From a virus: a DNA stretch of 57,657 nt. The stretch spans positions 1 through 57,657 of the IMG/VR virus record IMGVR_UViG_3300003332_000022. One strand, written 5' to 3'. How positions within the stretch are numbered: position 1 is the first letter of the stretch; every line of letters begins with the position of its first letter. The notes under the pieces are model-generated. The model had not been told where the DNA came from. It saw nothing but the letters and a program-made list of their open reading frames with translations, and did not search any database. The position numbers were made by a program, and so were the translations under genes. Below are positions 1 to 57,657 of the stretch, one piece after another.

Positions 1-973
1 TCGAGGTTTTAGCTACCAACATAAATTCTCTAATAAATAATATAGTATCTTTTTTTGATACCTTTTTATTGATTAGAGACAAGGCTGTTGATCTAATTTG
101 ATCGTGGAAGTTTTCAGCAGACATAATCTTTCTAATAGAAGCAGATATATCAAAATCTTTGCTTATGCTTCCATTATTCAAATTTACAAGATTCCCTTTA
201 TTTTCGTCACCTTTAGTAGTAATTGATTCTATGTCTGAAGGTTCCCAGTCAAGCAAGCTATTTCCCCTGTCTACATATCCTATAAATTCATTAGGATCTA
301 TAGGATCTATCCCACTTTCGATCACCCTTTTAGCGGTGTATACAGGTTGAACCGCTCTGTATATAGAGTAATCTACCAGGTTTTCACTGTTAGCTTTATT
401 CCAGGACTGAGCCCAGGACATCAGACTAACATTAGAGATAGGATTCTTTGGAGTAAAAAATAAATGGGCTTTTAGCTTTTTTGAGGTTAAGCCGAAAGAA
501 GCTGAAAATTGATATGTATAATCTGCTTGTGAAAACTCTATGGGCAGTTTATTTTCAATAAAACTTTCTATTGATTGTTTGCCGACTTTTACAAGATTAC
601 CCTCAGATTCTCGTTCATAGTTCATCATTAGAGGATAATCATCTATATCTATAGCAAACAAATCTACCATTCTATTTTCTATAGTTGGAGGCAATCCATC
701 TGGATGATCTTTCCTAGATCTTCTTAACATGTTAGACTTATCGATGTCTGGAAGAAACCCACCATGTATCATAAATACTTTTTTATTGGTTACAGTTTTT
801 AAAATTTCACTGAACTCTTTTAAATTTTCAACTTTTTGGGTTATTCCTCTAAAGTGCTTCATTAATGGATAGTCTTTTGATTTTACCCATTTCTCTGACT
901 CTTCATCATAATTAAAAGTCTTTGTTGGAAGATCTTTAATTAATGGCATTAAAAAGTTCACTTTAATCGACAT
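1..973 (-). CDS. Archaeo-eukaryotic-type primase, N-terminal half of primase-helicase (cut by window edge)
   Basis: The frame is open from ATG at 973 to the window edge, 324 codons with no stop. Residues around 110-120 read DLFAIDIDDYP, the hhhDxD metal-binding motif of AEP/PrimPol primases. A later KAHLFF segment fits the second, histidine-bearing motif, and DYSIYRAVQPVYTAKR fits the third-motif region where an Asp is followed by basic residues. AEP primases make RNA or DNA primers for replication. The segment ends in a helical stretch that normally links primase to helicase, and the helicase half lies at 55837-57657 at the opposite window end. Family call is from motifs; the join is inference. 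Confidence 0.8.
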   Translation of the reverse strand, partial: MSIKVNFLMPLIKDLPTKTFNYDEESEKWVKSKDYPLMKHFRGITQKVENLKEFSEILKTVTNKKVFMIHGGFLPDIDKSNMLRRSRKDHPDGLPPTIENRMVDLFAIDIDDYPLMMNYERESEGNLVKVGKQSIESFIENKLPIEFSQADYTYQFSASFGLTSKKLKAHLFFTPKNPISNVSLMSWAQSWNKANSENLVDYSIYRAVQPVYTAKRVIESGIDPIDPNEFIGYVDRGNSLLDWEPSDIESITTKGDENKGNLVNLNNGSISKDFDISASIRKIMSAENFHDQIRSTALSLINKKVSKKDTILFIREFMLVAKTS

Positions 974-4500: not shown

Positions 4501-4799
4501 TTATTTTCCTTTAGTTGGTCTTGTGCAAAATCCCAGACCTCACAGAAAGCATTATATTTTATATATCCAAAATCGAGATCGCCATTCGCGTGCAGTTTCC
4601 AAGCTTCTTCTCTTGTTATTGGTTTAGAATTAATCTCTTTAAGCCAGCCTATTGGGATTGATGTAAATTTTATTTCTGCAAAATTATTTACAGTAATTGA
4701 CTCATTTGCCGATATTTCATCTTTAAAACCAAAAAGCATATTTGCTAAAAGCGCATCTTCTTTGTTTATCATTTCTGGAATAATTATCTTATATTTCAT
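4497..4799 (-). CDS. Hypothetical protein, about 100 aa
   Basis: The ATG at 4799 is preferred over 4820 because GGGAGG lies 7 nt upstream and it forms an ATGA overlap with the preceding stop. The protein begins with an alternating hydrophobic strand (MKYKIIIPEM), has a DLDFGY segment and a Trp-containing helix near the end. I see no catalytic motif, signal or membrane segment. Position suggests an accessory gene upstream of the modification cassette. Confidence 0.62.
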   Translation of the reverse strand: MKYKIIIPEMINKEDALLANMLFGFKDEISANESITVNNFAEIKFTSIPIGWLKEINSKPITREEAWKLHANGDLDFGYIKYNAFCEVWDFAQDQLKENK

Positions 4800-5596: not shown

Positions 5597-5803
5597 TTAT
5601 CTTCCTAGTTCCTGTAGCTCTCGTGATATTCCCCAGAGTTGATCAGCCTTTTCTTGAAATGAAGATTCATCATAAGCTAATGCCATATTTTTAAATAATC
5701 TTTCTTTGTTTTTAAACTTCATTGAAATAATTTCTGCTTTCAGAGCCTCGATTTGTGCAATTAAAGAATAAATTATAGCGAGTGTAGCTGTATCAAATGT
5801 CAT
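5597..5803 (-). CDS. Hypothetical helical protein, 68 aa
   Basis: The product is almost entirely predicted helix: an apolar N-terminal helix (ATLAIIYSLIAQIEALKAEI) then a charged amphipathic helix ending LQELGR. It could be a small coiled-coil or membrane-peripheral protein. GAGGAG lies just upstream of ATG 5803, which overlaps the stop of the preceding small gene as TAATG. Confidence 0.5.
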   Translation of the reverse strand: MTFDTATLAIIYSLIAQIEALKAEIISMKFKNKERLFKNMALAYDESSFQEKADQLWGISRELQELGR

Positions 5804-5931
5804 TACATCTCCTCAAAAAACATTCTAATAAATAGACATGTAGAATAAATCTCGCTTCTTGAATAGAAGTTCCATTGGTCGCAATATGGAGGATTGTATC
5901 TACATATAGGTTTGAATTCATTTATCGCCAC
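5803..5931 (-). CDS. Small Cys-containing protein, 42 aa (GTG start)
   Basis: Read from GTG 5931 (GAGG just upstream), the product contains FKPICRYNPPYCDQW and a C-terminal hydrophobic FIRMFFEEM. Its TAA overlaps the next gene's ATG as TAATG, the coupling used elsewhere here. An alternative frame from ATG 5921 (45 aa) overlaps the DUF1566 stop as ATGA but runs past the next start. I prefer the GTG frame from composition and coupling; moderate to low certainty. Confidence 0.4.
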   Translation of the reverse strand: MAINEFKPICRYNPPYCDQWNFYSRSEIYSTCLFIRMFFEEM

Positions 5932-6331
5932 CTCGAACGCAACGGACATACATGTTACCTGTCTTATAGTTATGGTTCACAACGCCGTTGTAGAAGTACA
6001 CATACCATGCGTAGCTAGTATAGCTAGCGTAGGTAGTAGACGACCAATAGTACGAAGAAACACATTTAAGACTATTAGTTTTACAACAATGATCATATTT
6101 TGAATGATCAACTAAGGTCAACAATTCTGTTATTGTTGGCAATCTCCATCCCTCACCTAAAGAGGTGGCGTATTCTATAGCATCATTCCAGGTCATCTTT
6201 GGTTTTGTTACTACTTCCCACTCTAAATTAGTTTCAAGATCAACCCATGTTTTCTTTTTAATTGTCCCAGATAATCTTCGTTGTAACTCGTCATACATTT
6301 CTTTAGTTGAATAATCTTTAAGTGTTGTCAT
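5918..6331 (-). CDS. DUF1566 (Lcl C-terminal-like) lectin-fold protein
   Basis: 137 aa. TWNDAIEYATSLGEGWRLPTITEL is the conserved core of DUF1566, a C-type-lectin/formylglycine-enzyme-like fold, and YVRCVRG is its usual C-terminus. Members serve as ligand-binding proteins, and some are targets of diversity-generating retroelements. The last 45 residues are dominated by Tyr, Ser, Asn and Thr, and use C-ending codons (TAC, AGC, AAC, GGC) unlike the AT-rich remainder of the gene. No signal peptide; it probably acts as a virion or host-interaction protein (inference). No reverse transcriptase is present in the window. Confidence 0.8.
   Translation of the reverse strand: MTTLKDYSTKEMYDELQRRLSGTIKKKTWVDLETNLEWEVVTKPKMTWNDAIEYATSLGEGWRLPTITELLTLVDHSKYDHCCKTNSLKCVSSYYWSSTTYASYTSYAWYVYFYNGVVNHNYKTGNMYVRCVRGGDK
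5935..6057 (-). other. Candidate variable region of the DUF1566 gene
   Basis: This 3' segment of the DUF1566 gene has a sharp rise in C/G at codon third positions: TAC four times, AGC twice, AAC three times, plus TTC and GGC. It encodes surface-type residues at the positions that vary in DUF1566 variable regions (AAY-derived NNC codons). The shift begins near 6057, where upstream codons return to AT-rich forms. It resembles a diversified cassette, but I found no template repeat. Confidence 0.45.
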
Positions 6332-8470: not shown

Positions 8471-8989
8471 ATGACTGCTATACCTGTTGTAGAGGAAAAA
8501 CCTATCAATCCAAGTAAACCATATACTGTGATGCCAAATGGAGGGATAAGATTCTATACAACCAAGTATCGTACTGAAATGGATCAGATTGCTTATGATG
8601 CTGTCGCTCAAGAAGATGGAACATTAACCCATGCTTGCTATGCTTTGGGAATTGCTAAATCAACCTTGCTAAAATGGATGGGAAGATATCCTAGTTTCTT
8701 TGAAGCAATTTCAAGAGGGAAAGAAGTTGGGGAATATTTGTTTAGACAAAAAGTTAAGGAAGTGGCTTTCCAACCAACTAGTGGAGTCAATAATACTCTT
8801 ATTAAGATGATTGCTCGGAATGTCCATGGTATTGATATTGAAAGTGAAGTTAGCATCAACATTAACGTTGGTAATAAGAAGGAATTGGCAAATGAAGATT
8901 GTAGGCTTTATCAGGAGGAAATGGAGAATATAATTGAAGGTGATTATGAGGAAGTTGCTCAGATTGAGCATAATGATGAAGACCAATGA
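8471..8989 (+). CDS. terS: Terminase small subunit
   Basis: 172 aa. Residues about 40-90 form a helix-turn-helix region (GTLTHACYALGIAKSTLLKWMGRYPSF, written here in parts: HACYALGIAKSTLLKW) typical of small terminases that recognise the packaging site. A later helix and an acidic tail (EYEEVAQIEHNDEDQ-like) match oligomerisation and large-subunit contact regions. It is separated by about 5 kb from the large subunit, unusual since the two genes are usually adjacent. No Shine-Dalgarno precedes the ATG. Tandem palindromes follow immediately and may be its target. Confidence 0.75.
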   Translation: MTAIPVVEEKPINPSKPYTVMPNGGIRFYTTKYRTEMDQIAYDAVAQEDGTLTHACYALGIAKSTLLKWMGRYPSFFEAISRGKEVGEYLFRQKVKEVAFQPTSGVNNTLIKMIARNVHGIDIESEVSININVGNKKELANEDCRLYQEEMENIIEGDYEEVAQIEHNDEDQ

Positions 8990-8997
8990 TTAGGACA

Positions 8998-9067
8998 GTA
9001 ACGTTACCAGCGGTACTTTTCAAGGTAGGTAACGTTACAGTAACGTTACAGTAACGTTACAGTAACG
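8998..9067. repeat. Tandem 11-bp palindromic repeats (GTAACGTTACA)
   Basis: Three head-to-tail copies of GTAACGTTACA at 9029-9061 plus a partial at 9062-9067, and one isolated GTAACGTTAC at 8998-9007. Each unit is a perfect 10-bp palindrome, and the 11-bp period places the units on nearly one DNA face. Position right after the small terminase gene suits a packaging (pac) site or a regulator array. Confidence 0.7.
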
Positions 9068-10830: not shown

Positions 10831-10852
10831 TAAATGGTGGTGATTAGTCAAA

Positions 10853-10972
10853 CTTAACATAAACATTAGTTAAACTTAGTCTAAGTTTGACTTAACATGA
10901 ACATTAGTTAAACTTAACATCAAATCAAATCTATAAAATAATAGATTTTGAAATCTATAAAATAATAGATTT
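10853..10972. repeat. Direct repeats of 26 bp and 22 bp
   Basis: A 26-bp unit starting CTTAACAT and ending TTAAACTTA occurs at 10853-10878 and 10891-10916 with one mismatch; between and around them AAACTTA-GTC-TAAGTTT forms a dyad. A 22-bp unit AAATCTAT...ATAGATTT, itself nearly palindromic, is repeated exactly at 10927-10948 and 10951-10972. The block lies just past the terminator at 10982 and contains no ORF. Possible regulator or replication-protein sites. Confidence 0.6.
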
Positions 10973-11020: not shown

Positions 11021-11371
11021 CTATTTCTTTTTTGAAATTGATTTTTTTGGGCTAGCTAATTTTTTTGCTAGCTTGATTCCTTCGTCTGAGGCCTTTTTGA
11101 TATAAGTCGCTTTTTGTCCTCGATAAAAACTTGGGCCGGATTTTTTCAAAATTCGCAAAGTTGTTCGAATTAAACTTTGCTCTCTGGCTTTGATTCTTAC
11201 TTCGTAACCGTTTTTGGTTTTGATTGGAGTTTTTTGATTTAAGACTTCGCAACCGTTTTTGGTAAAGTCAATAATTGAAGCTTGAAGAAGACCCAAATTT
11301 TCAAAAGCGATCGTATAAACTACGCCAGATTTTGAAGAAGATCCACGAACCATTTTAATTTGACTTTTCAT
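11021..11371 (-). CDS. Basic hypothetical protein, 116 aa
   Basis: AGGAAT precedes ATG 11371. The product has a beta-rich middle (GVVYTIAFENLGLLQASIID) and a strongly basic C-terminus ending KLASPKKSISKKK, suggesting nucleic-acid binding. It stands alone between the promoter at 11506-11534 and the terminator at 10982-11012, a monocistronic unit beside the repeat array at 11862-12114. A role as a replication or array-binding protein is possible but is inference from place and charge only. Confidence 0.55.
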   Translation of the reverse strand: MKSQIKMVRGSSSKSGVVYTIAFENLGLLQASIIDFTKNGCEVLNQKTPIKTKNGYEVRIKAREQSLIRTTLRILKKSGPSFYRGQKATYIKKASDEGIKLAKKLASPKKSISKKK

Positions 11372-11505
11372 TTTATTCCTTTTTTTGAATTTTTGGATTT
11401 TTGGATTTTGAGCAAAATTTTTGGGAAGTAGATATTTTTTGTACCGGCTTATCCCGGATCCAGCTTCTCAGCTCCTTTGAGGTGTTTCCCTGACCTCTAT
11501 TTATA

Positions 11506-11534
11506 ATACTACTCTGGAAAAATCAGAAAGTAAA
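11506..11534 (-). promoter_or_regulatory. Promoter (TTTACT-N17-TAGTAT)
   Basis: -35 TTTACT at 11534-11529, 17-bp spacer, -10 TAGTAT at 11511-11506. Predicted start near 11499 leaves a long leader of about 128 nt before ATG 11371, which contains a mixed-composition stretch near 11440-11490 that could form secondary structure. Confidence 0.6.
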
Positions 11535-11574
11535 GAAAAAAAGATCAGAAAATCGCCTGTAATATCAGGAGTTT

Positions 11575-11655
11575 AGTAAAATAATTAAAATAAAATGATT
11601 TAAATAGGATAAAAATAAATGAAAATAAATAAAAATAAAATGAAAATAGTTTAGT
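11575..11655. other. AT-rich tract, possible DNA-unwinding element
   Basis: About 80 bp composed almost only of A and T, with A-rich short units (AAAATAA, AAAATGA) repeated irregularly. It lies 200 bp from the 23-bp repeat array and is gene-free. AT-rich tracts next to repeated binding sites are typical of replication origins; here that is inference. The rest of 11372-11861 holds no convincing gene. Confidence 0.45.
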
Positions 11656-11861
11656 TAGGTTTGAAAAATCTAGCTAAACCGATAATTATCGCAAAAATCG
11701 TTTTCTATCGGTTTAAATCGCAGAAATCTGTTTCTGGTAAATAATGGAAAGTAAAGGGTTTCAGCCTTATTTATTCTAATGCTATCTATTAGCCAGACTT
11801 TATTAGCCAAACTTAATTGCTTAGTTAAGTATAGCTAATGGGAAAAAATTACCTGTTGGGT

Positions 11862-12114
11862 GTTTGTATATACTAATTGGAATTGTTTGCCTATACTAAA
11901 TGATAATGTTCGCATATACTAATTTGAATTGTTAGTATATAAGAAATGGAAATGTTCGTATTGGCTAACTTGTAATGTTAGTATATACGAATTGTTTTGT
12001 TTAGTATATACGAAATGATAATGTTTGTATAGGCAAACTTGAATTGTTTGCGTTAGCAAATTTGTAATGTTCGTATACGCAAAAAAGTATTGTTTGCCCT
12101 AACAAACATCCAAC
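11862..12114. repeat. Array of eleven degenerate 23-bp iterons
   Basis: Eleven head-to-tail units with exact 23-bp period (11862, 11885, 11908, 11931, 11954, 11977, 12000, 12023, 12046, 12069, 12092). Each begins GTTNG (one begins TTTAG), then six variable bases, then CNAA or a near match (unit 4 has AGAA), then about six bases usually ending AAT or ATT. GTTNG-N6-CNAA is a degenerate dyad (for example TTTGC and GCAAA in unit 9). Between units the invariant bases stay while the rest drifts. There are no unique spacers, so it is not CRISPR. Best explained as binding sites for an initiator or partition-type protein. Confidence 0.8.
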
Positions 12115-12212
12115 CAACCCTATTATTCTCACCCCTGGTTGCTACCGCGCACTAACCACTCGAATACCATCACCCCCATGTCCTGTCTAAAAAATTTTTT
12201 CAATTTTTTTTC

Positions 12213-12241
12213 TTTACTAATCAATTCCCCCCAACTATACT
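12213..12241 (+). promoter_or_regulatory. Late operon promoter (TTTACT-N17-TATACT)
   Basis: TTTACT at 12213-12218, 17-bp spacer, TATACT at 12236-12241. The predicted start, 7 bp past the -10, falls on the A of the endolysin ATG at 12248, so the first gene may be translated from a leaderless message. The spacer carries a C6 run. Confidence 0.6.
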
Positions 12242-12247
12242 AATAAT

Positions 12248-12619
12248 ATGAATACAAATTGGGGAGCATTCAAAACACATTTCAAACCAGAAGAGTTCGC
12301 TGATCCAACAGGCGCCAACGGCATGAACGAAGACTTCATGTCTAAACTGTTCTCAGCCAGGGTATTGGCCGATACATCTTTCAAAATAACCTCTGGGTTT
12401 AGAACCCCAGAACATAACGCTAAAGTAGGTGGCTCTAAAACATCTTCTCACTTGTTTGGCCTAGCAAGCGATATAGAAGCACACAATTCAATAAAGCGGA
12501 GCCTAATCATTTCTTCATTGCTAGAAGTTGGCTTCACAAGAATAGGAATTGGCGCCACTTTTATACACGTTGATTTGGATCCTATAAAAACGCAAAATGT
12601 CATTTGGCTATATCAATGA
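12248..12619 (+). CDS. Peptidase M15-family endolysin
   Basis: 123 aa. SGFRTPEHNAKVGGSK, then SSHLFGLASDIE, supply the conserved SxHxxGxAxD zinc-ligand motif, and FIHVDLD near the end gives the last His. M15 peptidases cut peptidoglycan cross-links or stem peptides and serve as endolysins. No signal peptide, so release needs a holin, possibly the small membrane protein two genes on. There is no Shine-Dalgarno; the promoter predicts a leaderless start. Confidence 0.85.
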   Translation: MNTNWGAFKTHFKPEEFADPTGANGMNEDFMSKLFSARVLADTSFKITSGFRTPEHNAKVGGSKTSSHLFGLASDIEAHNSIKRSLIISSLLEVGFTRIGIGATFIHVDLDPIKTQNVIWLYQ

Positions 12620-13765: not shown

Positions 13766-13966
13766 ATGGACTATATGATAGATTTAGGCATTGCTTATTA
13801 TCCTCAAGTTGGGATAGGATTGGCTATTTTAGCGGTAATTTATGGTGGGGCTAAAGCCATTGCTAAAATAACACCTACTAAAAAGGATGATAAGATTGTT
13901 GAAAAGCTCGAAAAAGCCGGCATTGGTAAATTTCTTTCAAGATTTAATCCTTTAAATAAAAAGTAA
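13766..13966 (+). CDS. Small single-span membrane protein, holin candidate
   Basis: ATG 13766 is preferred to GTG 13760 because AAGG sits 5 nt upstream. 66 aa with one membrane segment (VGIGLAILAVIYGGAKAIAK) and a basic, helical C-terminus (KKDDKIVEKLEKAGIGKF). Size, topology and place beside the endolysin suit a class III holin or a lysis accessory, but no family signature is visible. Stop overlaps the terminase start by 1 nt. Confidence 0.5.
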   Translation: MDYMIDLGIAYYPQVGIGLAILAVIYGGAKAIAKITPTKKDDKIVEKLEKAGIGKFLSRFNPLNKK

Positions 13967-16608
13967 TGGCAGGATATCCTAACTTCAAAAAAATTCTTCA
14001 CAAACGTGCTCAAAAGATCATTAAGATTAAGAGTGATCCTAGACTTATGCGTGGTGCTTGGCACTATTATAAGGATAGGCCTGTTGAATATATTTGTGAT
14101 TGGGGTGTTACTTATGATCCTAGAAATGCGGGTACAGATATTCCTACCTTAATGCCATTTGTTCCATTTAAACGTCAAAAAGAGTTTATAAGATTTCTGT
14201 ATGCGTGTCTGCTAGATCAAGAAAATGGTGGATGTGAGAAATGTCGTGACGTTGGAGCGACTTGGATAGCGGCAAATTTCAGTGATTGGCTATGGAGATT
14301 TCACCCAGGGTCTGCTATAGGTTGGGGATCTCGTAAAGAGAGTTTAGTTGATAAAATGGGAGATCCTGATTCTATATTCGAGAAGATTAGAATGGTTCAG
14401 GAGAATATCCCCTCATTTTTACAGCCAAAAGGATGGAATTCAAAGGTTCATGCTACCTATATGAAGATAATTAATCCTGAAAATGGGTCTACGATAACCG
14501 GAGAAGCGGGTGACAACATTGGTAGAGGCGGGAGGAAAACCATATATTTTAAAGACGAAGCCCAACCATTAACCTCTAAGGTATTAACTCCTACTGGATT
14601 TAAATTAATGGGTGATATAGAGGTTGGCTCTATTATATCTCATCCATATAATGGTACCTCTAAAGTTACTCAGATAAAAGAGTTTGAATCAGTGGAAACA
14701 TTTAGATTTAAATTCAGCGATGGAATGATTGCCGAGTGTAGTCCAAATCATTTATGGGAAGTAACAAAAACTTGGGGCAAAAAGAAAAAGTTTATAACTT
14801 CAGCAAAAGCATTATATGAAGATTATGTCTATAATAGCCCAGGTGGCCAAAAACAATATAAGTATAGGATTCCTATCTGCGATGTTATAGAATTTGACTC
14901 AAAAGAAGAATTGCCTCTTGATCCTTATTTAGTTGGAGCTTTAATAGGTGATGGCTCTGTTCATAAAGTGCCCAATGCTACTCCTGGTTTTACTACTGCT
15001 GATGAATTTATGGTTCAAGAATTTGAGAGGCTGTTGCCAGAAGGTGTAGAGATTATGAATAGAGGTGGTTATGCTTATAGCATTTGTGATGTTATTGGAG
15101 TCAAATCTAATAGGTTTAATAAAAGCAGAGCCAGAAAAGTAGTTGGGGATTCAGGGATAGGTGGATGCTTATCCTATCAAAAGTTTATTCCAGATGCATA
15201 TAAATATTCGACTCCTGAAAATAGGTTTGATTTATTACAAGGGTTGATGGATACTGATGGATGTGGTTCTGGAGTTGCTAGTTTTCATACATCTTCTGAG
15301 AAGTTAGCAAATGATGTATTGTTTCTAGTTCAGTCTTTAGGTGGGACTGCTACTTATAATATAAAGCCAAATGAGATGCATAGAGATATGTATGTATTAC
15401 ATCTAGCTTTACCAAAGTGGCCTGCTCCTTTTAGACTTGAAAGAAAGATTGCATCCCTTAACCCAAGAAAACATCCAGTGGGCAGAGCTATTATTTCAAT
15501 TGAGCTGTTAGAAGCTCAGCCTATGAGGTGTATTTCTGTAGATTCTAAAGATGGATTATACTTAACTGACAACTTTGTAGTAACCCATAATTCAGCCCAT
15601 TATGAAAGACCTGAAAAAATCGAAGCTGCTCTCGGTGATAATACTAACATACAAATTGACATCTCTTCAGTTAATGGGCCTACTACTGTATTTCAAAGAA
15701 GAATTGACGCAGGAGAGGTATGGGAGCCTGATTCTACTCCAAGAAAAGGAGCGACCAGAGTTTTTATCTTTGACTGGTCAGACCATCCATTAAAAACCCA
15801 GGAATGGTATGATACAAGAAGAGCAAGAGCAGTTGAAGAAGGGTTGCTTCATATATTTGCTCAAGAGGTTGATCGAGATGCCACTGCTGCTGTTGAAGGA
15901 ATTTTAATTCCTGGTAATTGGGTTACTGCTATTATTGATGCTCATATTAAACTGAATATTCCTATTACTGGAAAGAAGATTGCCGCTTTTGATGTAGCTG
16001 ACGGTGGAGAAGATAAACAGGGTTTATCTTTAAGGCATGGTATTCTACAGTATATTTCTGATAAGTGGGATGCTCCAGATGTAGGTGTAGCTACTCAAAA
16101 AGCATTATTCAGGTGTAAAAGAGAAAGGGTTACATCCCTACAATATGATAATATTGGTGTTGGATCTGGGGTTAAGTCTGAGATTAATAGGCTGGAAAGA
16201 GAAAAATTATTGCCTAAAAGTCTTGATGTAGTTGGGTGGAACGCTTCTGGAAAGGTATTAAAACCTAATGCCAGAGTGATAAGAGGTGATAAACAATCAC
16301 CTAGAAACAAAGATTTTTATGCTAATTTAAAGGCTCAAGGGTGGTGGCAATTGCGATTGCGTTGCGAAAAGACATTTAAAATGATTAATCAGGTAGCTGA
16401 ATATCCTGTTGATGAGCTTATTAGTCTTGATTCTAATATGAAAGGGTTACAGGAACTGAGAAAAGAACTGTCTCAGCCAACTTATTCTATAAATGGTGCT
16501 GGCAAGTTAGTTATTGATAAGAAGCCTGATGGGATGAAGTCTCCTAATAGAGCGGATGCGACTATGATGAATTACTGGCCTAAACACAAAAGACAAGTCT
16601 TCATTTAA
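13966..16608 (+). CDS. terL: Terminase large subunit with intein
   Basis: 880 aa precursor; about 537 aa after splicing. ATPase: variant Walker A at residues 91-100 (EKCRDVGATW) and Walker B/catalytic acid at 193-199 (IYFKDEA). Residues 200-542 are an intein splitting DEA from SAHYERPEKI. RuvC-like nuclease: Asp in AAFDVADGG (about 676), Asp in SLQYDNIGVG, and the final Asp pair in NRADATMM near 866. The enzyme cuts concatemeric DNA and pumps it into proheads with the small subunit at 8471. TAATG overlap with the preceding gene. Confidence 0.92.
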   Translation: MAGYPNFKKILHKRAQKIIKIKSDPRLMRGAWHYYKDRPVEYICDWGVTYDPRNAGTDIPTLMPFVPFKRQKEFIRFLYACLLDQENGGCEKCRDVGATWIAANFSDWLWRFHPGSAIGWGSRKESLVDKMGDPDSIFEKIRMVQENIPSFLQPKGWNSKVHATYMKIINPENGSTITGEAGDNIGRGGRKTIYFKDEAQPLTSKVLTPTGFKLMGDIEVGSIISHPYNGTSKVTQIKEFESVETFRFKFSDGMIAECSPNHLWEVTKTWGKKKKFITSAKALYEDYVYNSPGGQKQYKYRIPICDVIEFDSKEELPLDPYLVGALIGDGSVHKVPNATPGFTTADEFMVQEFERLLPEGVEIMNRGGYAYSICDVIGVKSNRFNKSRARKVVGDSGIGGCLSYQKFIPDAYKYSTPENRFDLLQGLMDTDGCGSGVASFHTSSEKLANDVLFLVQSLGGTATYNIKPNEMHRDMYVLHLALPKWPAPFRLERKIASLNPRKHPVGRAIISIELLEAQPMRCISVDSKDGLYLTDNFVVTHNSAHYERPEKIEAALGDNTNIQIDISSVNGPTTVFQRRIDAGEVWEPDSTPRKGATRVFIFDWSDHPLKTQEWYDTRRARAVEEGLLHIFAQEVDRDATAAVEGILIPGNWVTAIIDAHIKLNIPITGKKIAAFDVADGGEDKQGLSLRHGILQYISDKWDAPDVGVATQKALFRCKRERVTSLQYDNIGVGSGVKSEINRLEREKLLPKSLDVVGWNASGKVLKPNARVIRGDKQSPRNKDFYANLKAQGWWQLRLRCEKTFKMINQVAEYPVDELISLDSNMKGLQELRKELSQPTYSINGAGKLVIDKKPDGMKSPNRADATMMNYWPKHKRQVFI
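14563..15591 (+). mobile_element. Intein with LAGLIDADG homing endonuclease (343 aa) in terminase
   Basis: Starts QPLTSKVLTPTG (intein block A, but Gln instead of Cys/Ser at position 1) and ends NFVVTHN followed by Ser as +1 extein residue (blocks F/G). Block B histidine is in SPNHLWEV. Two endonuclease motifs are visible: LVGALIGDG (about precursor residues 322-330) and LLQGLMDTDG (about 423-432). It is inserted inside the ATPase Walker B site, a typical choice since loss must be precise. Gln1 is a recognised but rare nonstandard intein N-terminus. Confidence 0.9.
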
Positions 16609-55836: not shown

Positions 55837-57657
55837 CTAACCAACATAAAACCTCTTAGTATGAAGTCTTTCATACCAAGAATATAACGTCCCAAAGTAT
55901 GTAGCTTTCTCATTGAATGCTTCTAATATTGCGTGTTTAAATTCTGATCCATTAACATCCACAGAGACATTAGTTCCACTTACCTGAACTCCATCTACCA
56001 ACTGCATTAAATCTCTTGTTAAGAAAGGTTTAGATCCAAACGTCTTATTAAGTAATTCTAACAATTCACCTTTGGCAGTAGTCTCATCATCTAAGAAATC
56101 ATTTCTATCAAATACATCTAACAGGTCTTCTCCACATATTTCCATTAATGGTATTCTAACAAATTTATTCCATTCTTTAAAGCGGGCAGCGGTTTCATAC
56201 TTGGAAAAATCTAAATTTTTCCCAACCATTACCAAGGATAAGACTGCGCTAATAATTTTCTTGCGGTTATCCATCGCCCATTGACCAATATCTTGTCTTC
56301 CAAACTTTCTAAATTCTGGCCTTTCAACATTAGGTACTATTCTGATTGGTAGTATTCTTGTAGCAAAGTCTCCTTTGAAGACAATATTGTTACCAGTAAA
56401 TAGCCATAGAACACTACTAGGTACTTCTTCAGTTTCATTAACGCCAAGTTTCCTCCTTGAGTAAGTGCCACTAGTCATAGCCTTTGCTAATTCATTACTA
56501 GCAACAGCGGCATCCTTTTTAATATTATCAAACAATACACAGCTATGTCCTTCTCTAAGGATAGCCAGGAGGTGTTTCCCTAATTCCTCATCGCTATCAC
56601 TCCAACCAGTAGCAGCAACAGGCCTATTATATATAGAGTAACTCATTAACTGAGCCAATGTAGTCTTACCAGAAGAAGGTTTTGGACTAACAATAGCATA
56701 ACCAGGCATCCCATTATCCCCAGTAACATAAGGTCTTTGAATAGCGGTCATAAACATTCCTACTGCTCCAGCTAAATCTAGTTTTGTCTGGAAAGGAAAT
56801 TCAGCCAATACCTCTTCTGTTAAGTATCTATATGCTTTCTCTGGATCAATTATTTTAACTTTCAATTTTCTATGTAGTTCGGCATATAAACCAGTATTAG
56901 GATCATATCCACTTTTCTCGACTAGCCTCCACTTATCATCTATAAAAGGATGTTCAACTATTCCAGCTAATGGCTTCCAATTTACTCCATACATCTTAGG
57001 TACAGAGTTGAGGATAGAGTCTGGACAAACTATCTCTTTACCAGTTTCATTTAGGAATATACAATCTTTTTCTACTCTACTTCTAATGATTCCTACAGGA
57101 TTATCTATTGTTTGAACAATAGGCATTGGAGGATAATCATCTTTTAGATTTATCTTTTTGGTTATCTGGCGAATGGTTTTGGGAATAGAATGAGATATTA
57201 TACAAATTGTATTCCCTAATTTATATACTTCTGGTTTTTTCTTGGAAGCTGCTAATATCTTAGCAACAGAATTAGTAACAGAACCATAAGTAGAGTTTGT
57301 TAATTCTAACTCAAATATATCTTGATTCTTTCTCTCTTCTGTTTTTAGCTTTCTAGCAATTTCTGCCATTTCTGCCTTTTTCTCTTCTTTGGCAGTCCGT
57401 ATATCTTCACTTATCGCTCTTGGGCCAAATTTCAATAACTCATCTAATTCTCTAACCAATCCTTTTAGTTCAGTTCCTTCAAATGGGATTAACTTTTTAG
57501 CAAATTCTTTTTTTAACATCTCTTTATCTGAAGTTAATATCCATTTTAGAACGTCATTATAATCAGGTATATCAACTATAGACATTGCCGAGTCTACTGC
57601 TCTTGAAATATCATCGTATCTCATTTGCCAATCTGCTAATCTCTCTTCATCATTTTT
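55837..57657 (-). CDS. Primase-helicase, C-terminal helicase half (cut by window edge)
   Basis: Open from the edge (11 codons before the first Met at 57624) to 55837. PKPSSGKTTLAQLM is the Walker A of a P-loop helicase; SCVLFDNIKKD is Walker B; WLFTGNNIVFKGDFATR holds sensor/Arg finger (N and R), as in the DUF927/SF3-like phage helicases. Preceding DWQMRYDDISRAVDSAM is the linker that follows primase domains. With 1-973 it would form a protein of about 930 aa that unwinds and primes DNA. The helicase part is secure, the join is inference. Confidence 0.85.
   Translation of the reverse strand, partial: KNDEERLADWQMRYDDISRAVDSAMSIVDIPDYNDVLKWILTSDKEMLKKEFAKKLIPFEGTELKGLVRELDELLKFGPRAISEDIRTAKEEKKAEMAEIARKLKTEERKNQDIFELELTNSTYGSVTNSVAKILAASKKKPEVYKLGNTICIISHSIPKTIRQITKKINLKDDYPPMPIVQTIDNPVGIIRSRVEKDCIFLNETGKEIVCPDSILNSVPKMYGVNWKPLAGIVEHPFIDDKWRLVEKSGYDPNTGLYAELHRKLKVKIIDPEKAYRYLTEEVLAEFPFQTKLDLAGAVGMFMTAIQRPYVTGDNGMPGYAIVSPKPSSGKTTLAQLMSYSIYNRPVAATGWSDSDEELGKHLLAILREGHSCVLFDNIKKDAAVASNELAKAMTSGTYSRRKLGVNETEEVPSSVLWLFTGNNIVFKGDFATRILPIRIVPNVERPEFRKFGRQDIGQWAMDNRKKIISAVLSLVMVGKNLDFSKYETAARFKEWNKFVRIPLMEICGEDLLDVFDRNDFLDDETTAKGELLELLNKTFGSKPFLTRDLMQLVDGVQVSGTNVSVDVNGSEFKHAILEAFNEKATYFGTLYSWYERLHTKRFYVG

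Follow-up and report, generated by a model that had tools for sequence, protein, structure and literature searches.

To our knowledge, most lytic phages with replication genes of their own have no mapped origin. Plasmid iterons are bound by monomers, are mostly non-palindromic, are described as helically phased, and usually have the rep gene adjacent to them. In the iteron origins of the plasmids RK2, R6K, P1 and F, the direct repeats lie about 20-23 bp apart with an unwinding element in their neighborhood (PMC5043065). In ori-lambda, the iterons are 19-bp imperfect inverted repeats that are bound by the O protein and flanked by an AT-rich region (PMC7466680), and O binds as dimers (PMC5043065). 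The RepA_N-type origin of PLE, a satellite of phage ICP1, is a noncoding region in which semi-palindromic direct repeats serve as iterons (PMC7145576). Among other phage sites, the T1-like phage TLS carries intergenic repeats of a short operator-like sequence (PMC11447400), and the pac site is a 22-bp asymmetric sequence in P22 and a set of multiple contact points in SPP1 (PMC9611059). We describe here an array of eleven phased palindromic units in a phage genome, which we read, at about even odds (probability of roughly 0.5), as an iteron-type replication origin formed together with a neighboring AT-rich unwinding element.

The window, i.e., the whole stretch of DNA that was analyzed, is a 57,657-bp IMG/VR phage record devoid of end repeats. 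Both of its ends fall inside minus-strand ORFs with primase-like matches, which are out of frame by one when the ends are simply joined, and from these two features we infer that the genome is circularly permuted and, a small gap aside, nearly complete, with the right-end ORF probably being the C-terminal part of the protein begun at the left end. The rightward genes span 12248-38050 and include the M15 endolysin, TerL, a portal neighbor (according to the annotation of its relatives) and more genes that we read as structural. The leftward genes make up most of the remainder, among them PolIII alpha, an exonuclease subunit, a helicase, a Cas4-like exonuclease and a ligase. Searches for RNA families and tRNAs returned none. 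No intergenic gap of the record is larger than the one that holds the array (11372-12247), which separates the leftward genes from the late/terminase operon on the right, and the AT-rich tract, the minus-strand basic ORF and the late genes that the initial annotation had placed around the array are indeed there (Table 1).

Table 1. Coordinates of the features discussed in the text.
Feature	Position	Strand	Remarks
Primase-like protein, N-terminal part, cut by the record end	2-970	-	phrog_16950 DNA primase; phrog_3712 'replication origin binding', N-terminal side
TerS-like HTH protein (small terminase)	8471-8989	+	phrog_309, E 4e-8
Lone lysine-rich protein, 116 aa	11021-11371	-	Positional counterpart of the L251 basic ORF
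AT-rich tract, putative DNA unwinding element	11575-11655		A-rich on + strand; degenerate 10-14 bp repeats
Connecting stretch with unphased half-site-like elements	11656-11860		Putative function
Left boundary arm GTTGGGTGTTTGT of inverted repeat	11855-11867	+	13 nt, 92% complementary to 12102-12114
Right boundary arm ACAAACATCCAAC of inverted repeat bracketing the array	12102-12114	-	
M15 peptidase (endolysin), first gene right of the array	12248-12619	+	
TerL, 1.85 kb right of the array	13966-16608	+	Aligns to relatives in two pieces around an insert
Primase-like ORF at the right end	55837-57624	-	phrog_19930; matches C-terminal side of primase/polymerase families

The array comprises 11 units on the plus strand (11861-12113), which start at 11861, 11884, 11907 and so on up to 12091, each step being exactly 23 bp. 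Eleven units in this exact period are what the initial annotation had described, and both the start positions and the self-match of the array at lag 23 bear this out (0.635, whereas 500 dinucleotide shuffles reached no more than 0.427 at any lag from 10 to 39). Each unit is made of a 16-bp imperfect palindrome with a TATA-like center, GTTNG-N6-CNAA(C/T/A), and of a 7-bp spacer. The GTTNG and CNAA blocks that had been singled out as conserved are each intact in ten of the eleven units, the exceptions being unit 7 (TTTAG) for the former and unit 4 (AGAA) for the latter. The TT at unit positions 3-4, the G at 6 and the AA at 15-16 are invariant, and position 22 is an A in 10/11 units, while pairwise identity between units ranges from 9 to 20 of the 23 positions and the information content totals about 28 bits across the 23 columns. 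What had been called a loose dyad is stronger than claimed: its center falls between positions 9 and 10, its clearest copy is TTAGTATATACGAA, and 4-7 of the 8 pairs are matched in each 16-bp core, so that every unit is an imperfect inverted repeat in the manner of the lambda-type iterons. Within units, the two half-sites show no covariation (57 pairs, against a permutation mean of 56.8), and the dyad thus rests on the consensus; within-unit covariation was rejected as a proof of palindromy, the half-sites being interchangeable among units. All units can be given the same direction because conservation is stronger on their left side (A-W-T-G-T-T-N-G) than on the right one.

This motif is confined to a single locus. 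TTNG-N6-CNAA occurs 35 times on the plus strand of the record, 10 of these within the array and in a single phase, and GTTNGTATATACNAA finds outside the array three matches at 2 mismatches and none at fewer, all matches with at most one mismatch lying inside it; a genome-wide spread of copies, as in stoperators, is absent, and single copies elsewhere in the record do not exceed chance. At the DNA level, comparison of the array with phages and plasmids gave only chance-level short matches. As a minor caveat, the exact 23-bp phase over 11 units may be the mere footprint of a tandem duplication followed by substitutions, from which such a phase follows, and a functionless, decaying tandem repeat would also fit the higher-order periods of 46 and 69 bp in the array and its absence from the relative L251 (see below). 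We nevertheless consider decay very improbable, since the half-site positions are invariant while the units differ at most other places, and since unrelated phages have independent arrays that share these half-sites and a 23-bp phase.

The array shares its gap with the most easily melted DNA of the record. According to nearest-neighbor energies, the least stable 60-mer of the whole record starts at 11577 and the least stable 100-bp window at 11572, and the AT-rich tract, which is adjacent to the array (225 bp to its left), could play an unwinding role, although intergenic DNA is AT-rich anyway and this gap is the largest one. The connecting stretch carries TATTAGCCA(G/A)ACTT twice at 11787-11818, TTAGTTAAGTATAGCTAA at about 11822 and a TAAACCGATA/TATCGGTTTA inverted repeat. 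GC skew, which the initial annotation had named as a check, gave a divided answer. The cumulative curve is flat and minimal over about 8-13 kb, with its lowest point near 12.8 kb in raw form and at 10.6 kb after detrending, hence near the array, and it peaks at 38.0 kb; the turn, however, falls where the genes switch direction, which makes it weak evidence for an origin, and it may be transcriptional in cause.

An iteron origin is what best fits the combination of semi-palindromic direct repeats, a fixed phase, a record-wide melting minimum, a single locus, a skew turn and a set of replication genes (PolIII alpha, helicase, primase, ligase and exonuclease). A putative initiator encoded by the phage would bind each of the eleven palindromes, probably as a dimer, and the bound proteins would form a single ordered nucleoprotein complex, which we propose because the sites share one phase and one direction. 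The strain exerted by this complex would melt the AT-rich tract at 11575-11655, on which the helicase/primase and the PolIII-alpha-type polymerase of the phage could load. The forks would run both ways, each arm with the direction of transcription, and would meet near 38 kb.

The anatomy on which this reading draws, namely semi-palindromic repeats with fixed spacing and an AT-rich neighbor, is that of ori-lambda and of the RepA_N origins. Tandem imperfectly palindromic sites beside an AT-rich region are common to ori-lambda and the window, a likeness in arrangement, and GTTGG...CCAAC arrays located inside O-like/DnaD-like genes of other phages add to it. The initial claim that no described phage array has such a unit was too strong, palindromic iterons being textbook matter (lambda ori; PMC7466680). 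The window differs from ori-lambda by its eleven sites instead of 4-6, by its intergenic position outside any initiator gene whereas the lambda-type array is in-gene, by the 225 bp to the AT-rich tract, and by the fact that no O-like gene was recognized in this phage. The RepA_N-type origins of PLE and pSK41/pTZ2162 also have semi-palindromic direct repeats in noncoding DNA, but these converge on a poly-A tract while the units of the window are TATA-like at their center, and no RepA_N protein was recognized by scanning Pfam/PHROG (not every ORF against both libraries). The spacing of the direct repeats and the neighboring unwinding element are shared with the iteron plasmids, but the sites of the window are palindromic, no rep gene was recognized beside them, and their helical phasing differs. 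Indeed, 23 bp correspond to 2.2 helical turns, so neighboring sites are not on one face, which speaks against an origin.

It also speaks against an origin that the Pfam/PHROG scans (again, not every ORF against both libraries) recognized no initiator, and that none adjoins the array. The sole initiator-like lead is the primase-like ORF at 2-970, through its weak 'replication origin binding' PHROG match, and this protein could be the initiator. The lysine-rich protein at 11021-11371, which the initial annotation had put forward as the array binder, found no support in this role: AlphaFold predicts a beta-beta-alpha-beta-beta-alpha fold with a long basic C-terminal helix at moderate confidence (mean pLDDT 71.7, two-sequence alignment), its structural matches are weak (best E 0.02, to RNA polymerase subunit L-like folds), and it has no relatives in the viral contigs searched. 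A centromere-like partition site or a nucleoid-structuring array bound by this basic protein would explain why repeated sites lie beside a small basic protein gene, and L251 has a basic ORF in the same place. But L251 retains this ORF without the array, the model is not a recognized DNA-binding fold, and neither ParA, ParB, ParM, TubZ nor RHH proteins were found among the proteins scanned against Pfam/PHROG, so the partition NTPase and adaptor expected of a centromere are absent from this set; no integrase was found either. We hold a centromere to be highly improbable. Of the origin-or-centromere reading initially proposed, it is the origin half that is strengthened, by the melting minimum, the skew turn, the single locus, the arrays of three other phages and the motif in initiator genes.

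The nearest relative found is L251/L255 (a 15,359-bp contig), whose TerL is 74-76%, portal-like protein 61% and TerS 35% identical to those of the window. L251 keeps the gene layout, including a gap of 1.1 kb, but inspection and a repeat search revealed no such array in this gap, and nowhere on the 15,359-bp contig does the two-unit pattern occur, even when 3 mismatches are allowed. A minus-strand lysine-rich ORF of 123 aa occupies the place of the 116-aa ORF of the window, with 21% identity after alignment and no BLASTP hit. As the array is missing despite the shared layout, it turns over quickly, through gain, loss or replacement. The initial annotation had held that the origin reading fails if related phages replicate without the array. 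Such a relative, with a TerL about 75% identical and no array in 15.4 kb, does weigh against an origin, as does DSL-LC05, which is kin to the largest array-bearing clade (clade A) and also lacks the array; thus the array is not conserved, but its absence in L251 does not make it functionless. Among the named TerL relatives, six stretches near TerL held no comparable phased array, and the endolysin relatives were uninformative for synteny.

That the array adjoins the late/terminase operon is explained no less well by two other functions than by an origin. The array could be a bidirectional operator, on which a phage regulator (a repressor or a late activator) would bind cooperatively and control both the leftward gene at 11021-11371 and the rightward endolysin-TerL operon. 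It lies between divergent units, 134 bp before the endolysin ATG, its 16-bp palindromic sites are typical of HTH dimers, the clusters of clade A and of the phage G008 are likewise at divergent junctions, and a quick turnover suits a repressor-operator pair. But eleven sites are many for a single junction, dispersed single sites are absent though the record has many transcription units, no repressor-like protein was seen among the proteins scanned, and promoter-like matches do not stand out from those in shuffles (12, against an expected 8.4). The L5 stoperators and the TLS repeats resemble the array as repeated short operator-like sequences of phages, but their copies are dispersed, one per intergenic region, whereas all copies of the window stand in one tandem array. 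The operator reading is thus possible but doubtful.

The array could also be a pac site, to which the TerS-like HTH protein (8471-8989) would bind so that TerL starts headful packaging of the concatemer. Published pac sites are not known to us as arrays of many phased palindromes. As with the pac sites of P22 and SPP1, a link to the terminase genes can be drawn, since arrays occur within a few kb of terL in several unrelated lineages and since, in clade A, the first gene past the array encodes a 149-aa protein that appears TerS-like from our own reading of its sequence and position; it has a weak match (E 0.025) to an annotated small terminase in DSL-LC05. However, L272 has a close homologue of this protein (E 6e-60) and no array, for which reason the protein was rejected as a necessary partner of the array. 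The TerS of L251 is 35% identical to that of the window, and L251 has no array. The reviewed pac sites differ (asymmetric in P22, multiple contacts in SPP1), TerS binds weakly and with little specificity in vitro (PMC9611059), and the arrays inside initiator genes are in a setting unlike terL. The two-sequence model of the window TerS was too poor to use. The case of L272 and the absence of dispersed sites lower the pac and operator readings, and we regard a pac site as unlikely.

Pattern scans of IMG/VR gave clustered palindromes with TTAG/CTAA half-sites in many phages among the matches listed; this class is defined by our own search patterns, the counts from its clades are not independent, and it probably mixes functions. 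G008, G009 and G010 (54-61 kb) are unrelated phages whose proteins resemble those of the window marginally at best, and they have TTAG-N8-CTAA palindromes at exact multiples of 23 bp. The 23-bp scan required three consecutive units, so only the phase beyond those three is independent, and there the three phages keep the multiples of 23 bp. L212 (2302-2477) and L224 (4673-4848), one of them on a 150-kb contig, each have nine palindromic sites with exactly 20-bp spacing. Three settings can be distinguished. In the first, GTTGG-N6-CCAAC versions 22-23 bp apart lie within O-like/DnaD-like initiator genes (L102, L103, L109, L112), and this related motif favors an origin; the stability minimum of the locus adjoins the in-gene array in L109 and L112, and a scan with a 22-bp period also gave the in-gene arrays of L101-L103 and L106-L107. 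In the second, the arrays are intergenic and near the terminase: clade A (37 contigs, with the array before the 149-aa protein, about 0.6 kb from TerL), L104, L105, L115, L142, L145, L154/L187, L241, G008 and G010 (3-5 kb), and G009 (7 kb). In the third, a small group, they are near primase/helicase genes. That many arrays are near terminase and not replication genes is a point against an origin.

DNA stability gives these arrays a further link to an origin. In the four whole or nearly whole records (window, G008, G009, G010), the least stable 60-mer always lies in an intergenic gap with array sites in it, a coincidence with a chance of about 0.003 when intergenic gaps are weighted by length. 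Among the fetched loci of at least 7 kb, 500 bp or less separate the stability minimum from the array in 19/22 clade-A loci, which are one lineage, but outside this clade in only 8/26, versus 2.7 expected. The skew minimum of G009, about 7 kb from its array, also counts against an origin, and a protein comparison of the window, G008, G009 and G010 for a shared binder gave no protein common to all four. We tentatively suggest, and without much confidence, a recurrent phage origin module, in which phased TTAG-N8-CTAA arrays would be joined to the most meltable DNA of the phage at the start of the late/terminase-side operon, outside initiator genes, in unrelated phages and with a phase fixed per lineage (20 or 23 bp). 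If so, its fast gain and loss would imply either swappable initiator/iteron pairs or one site that serves replication start plus packaging or late transcription.

If the array is an origin, genomes can be searched for its signature, a single locus at which phased TTAG/CTAA palindromes adjoin the least stable DNA; this signature already flags candidate origins in at least three other phages of 54-61 kb and in the 37 contigs of one clade. Should the array serve packaging or a late switch instead, it would be an unusually large palindromic example of such a site.

Several other repeats and inserts were observed. L117 (5491-5950, on a 29-kb contig) has at least 19 TTAG/CTAA sites alternating between 23 and 24 bp, and a weakly ParB-like protein is encoded 2.4 kb away. 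The TerL relative L099 carries at 1545-1735, about 2 kb upstream of terL, a 17-bp tandem array of TATAATTGCGAACGGTC-like units, i.e., a different unit in a similar place, and L245 (Rhizobium phage RHph_I65) has scattered GTTAAGA/TCTTAAC copies in the gap upstream of TerS (5602-6050), possibly a parallel regulatory or packaging repeat. The window TerL contains an insert of about 330 aa, which we read as an intein; the TerL of L251 (545 aa, 75% identical) is free of it, and that of G008 (L261:9120-11606) likewise has an insert, which matches a thymidylate-synthase PHROG. Directly before a small ORF of the window, the 11-bp palindrome GTAACGTTACA is repeated in tandem in 3.5 perfect copies (9029-9067). 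Degenerate TTAGTTAAACTTAACAT repeats lie on the downstream side of the basic ORF (10843-10920), and the counterpart place of L251 has unrelated TCGAACTAT and TCAGAATTGCNCA repeats. Finally, a hairpin-like AATCTAT(A/T)AAATAATAGATTTTGA, possibly a terminator or a processing site, is conserved in the stretch that separates TerS from the basic ORF; the window has two copies of it (10927-10972), and in L251 it lies at about 4575-4600.
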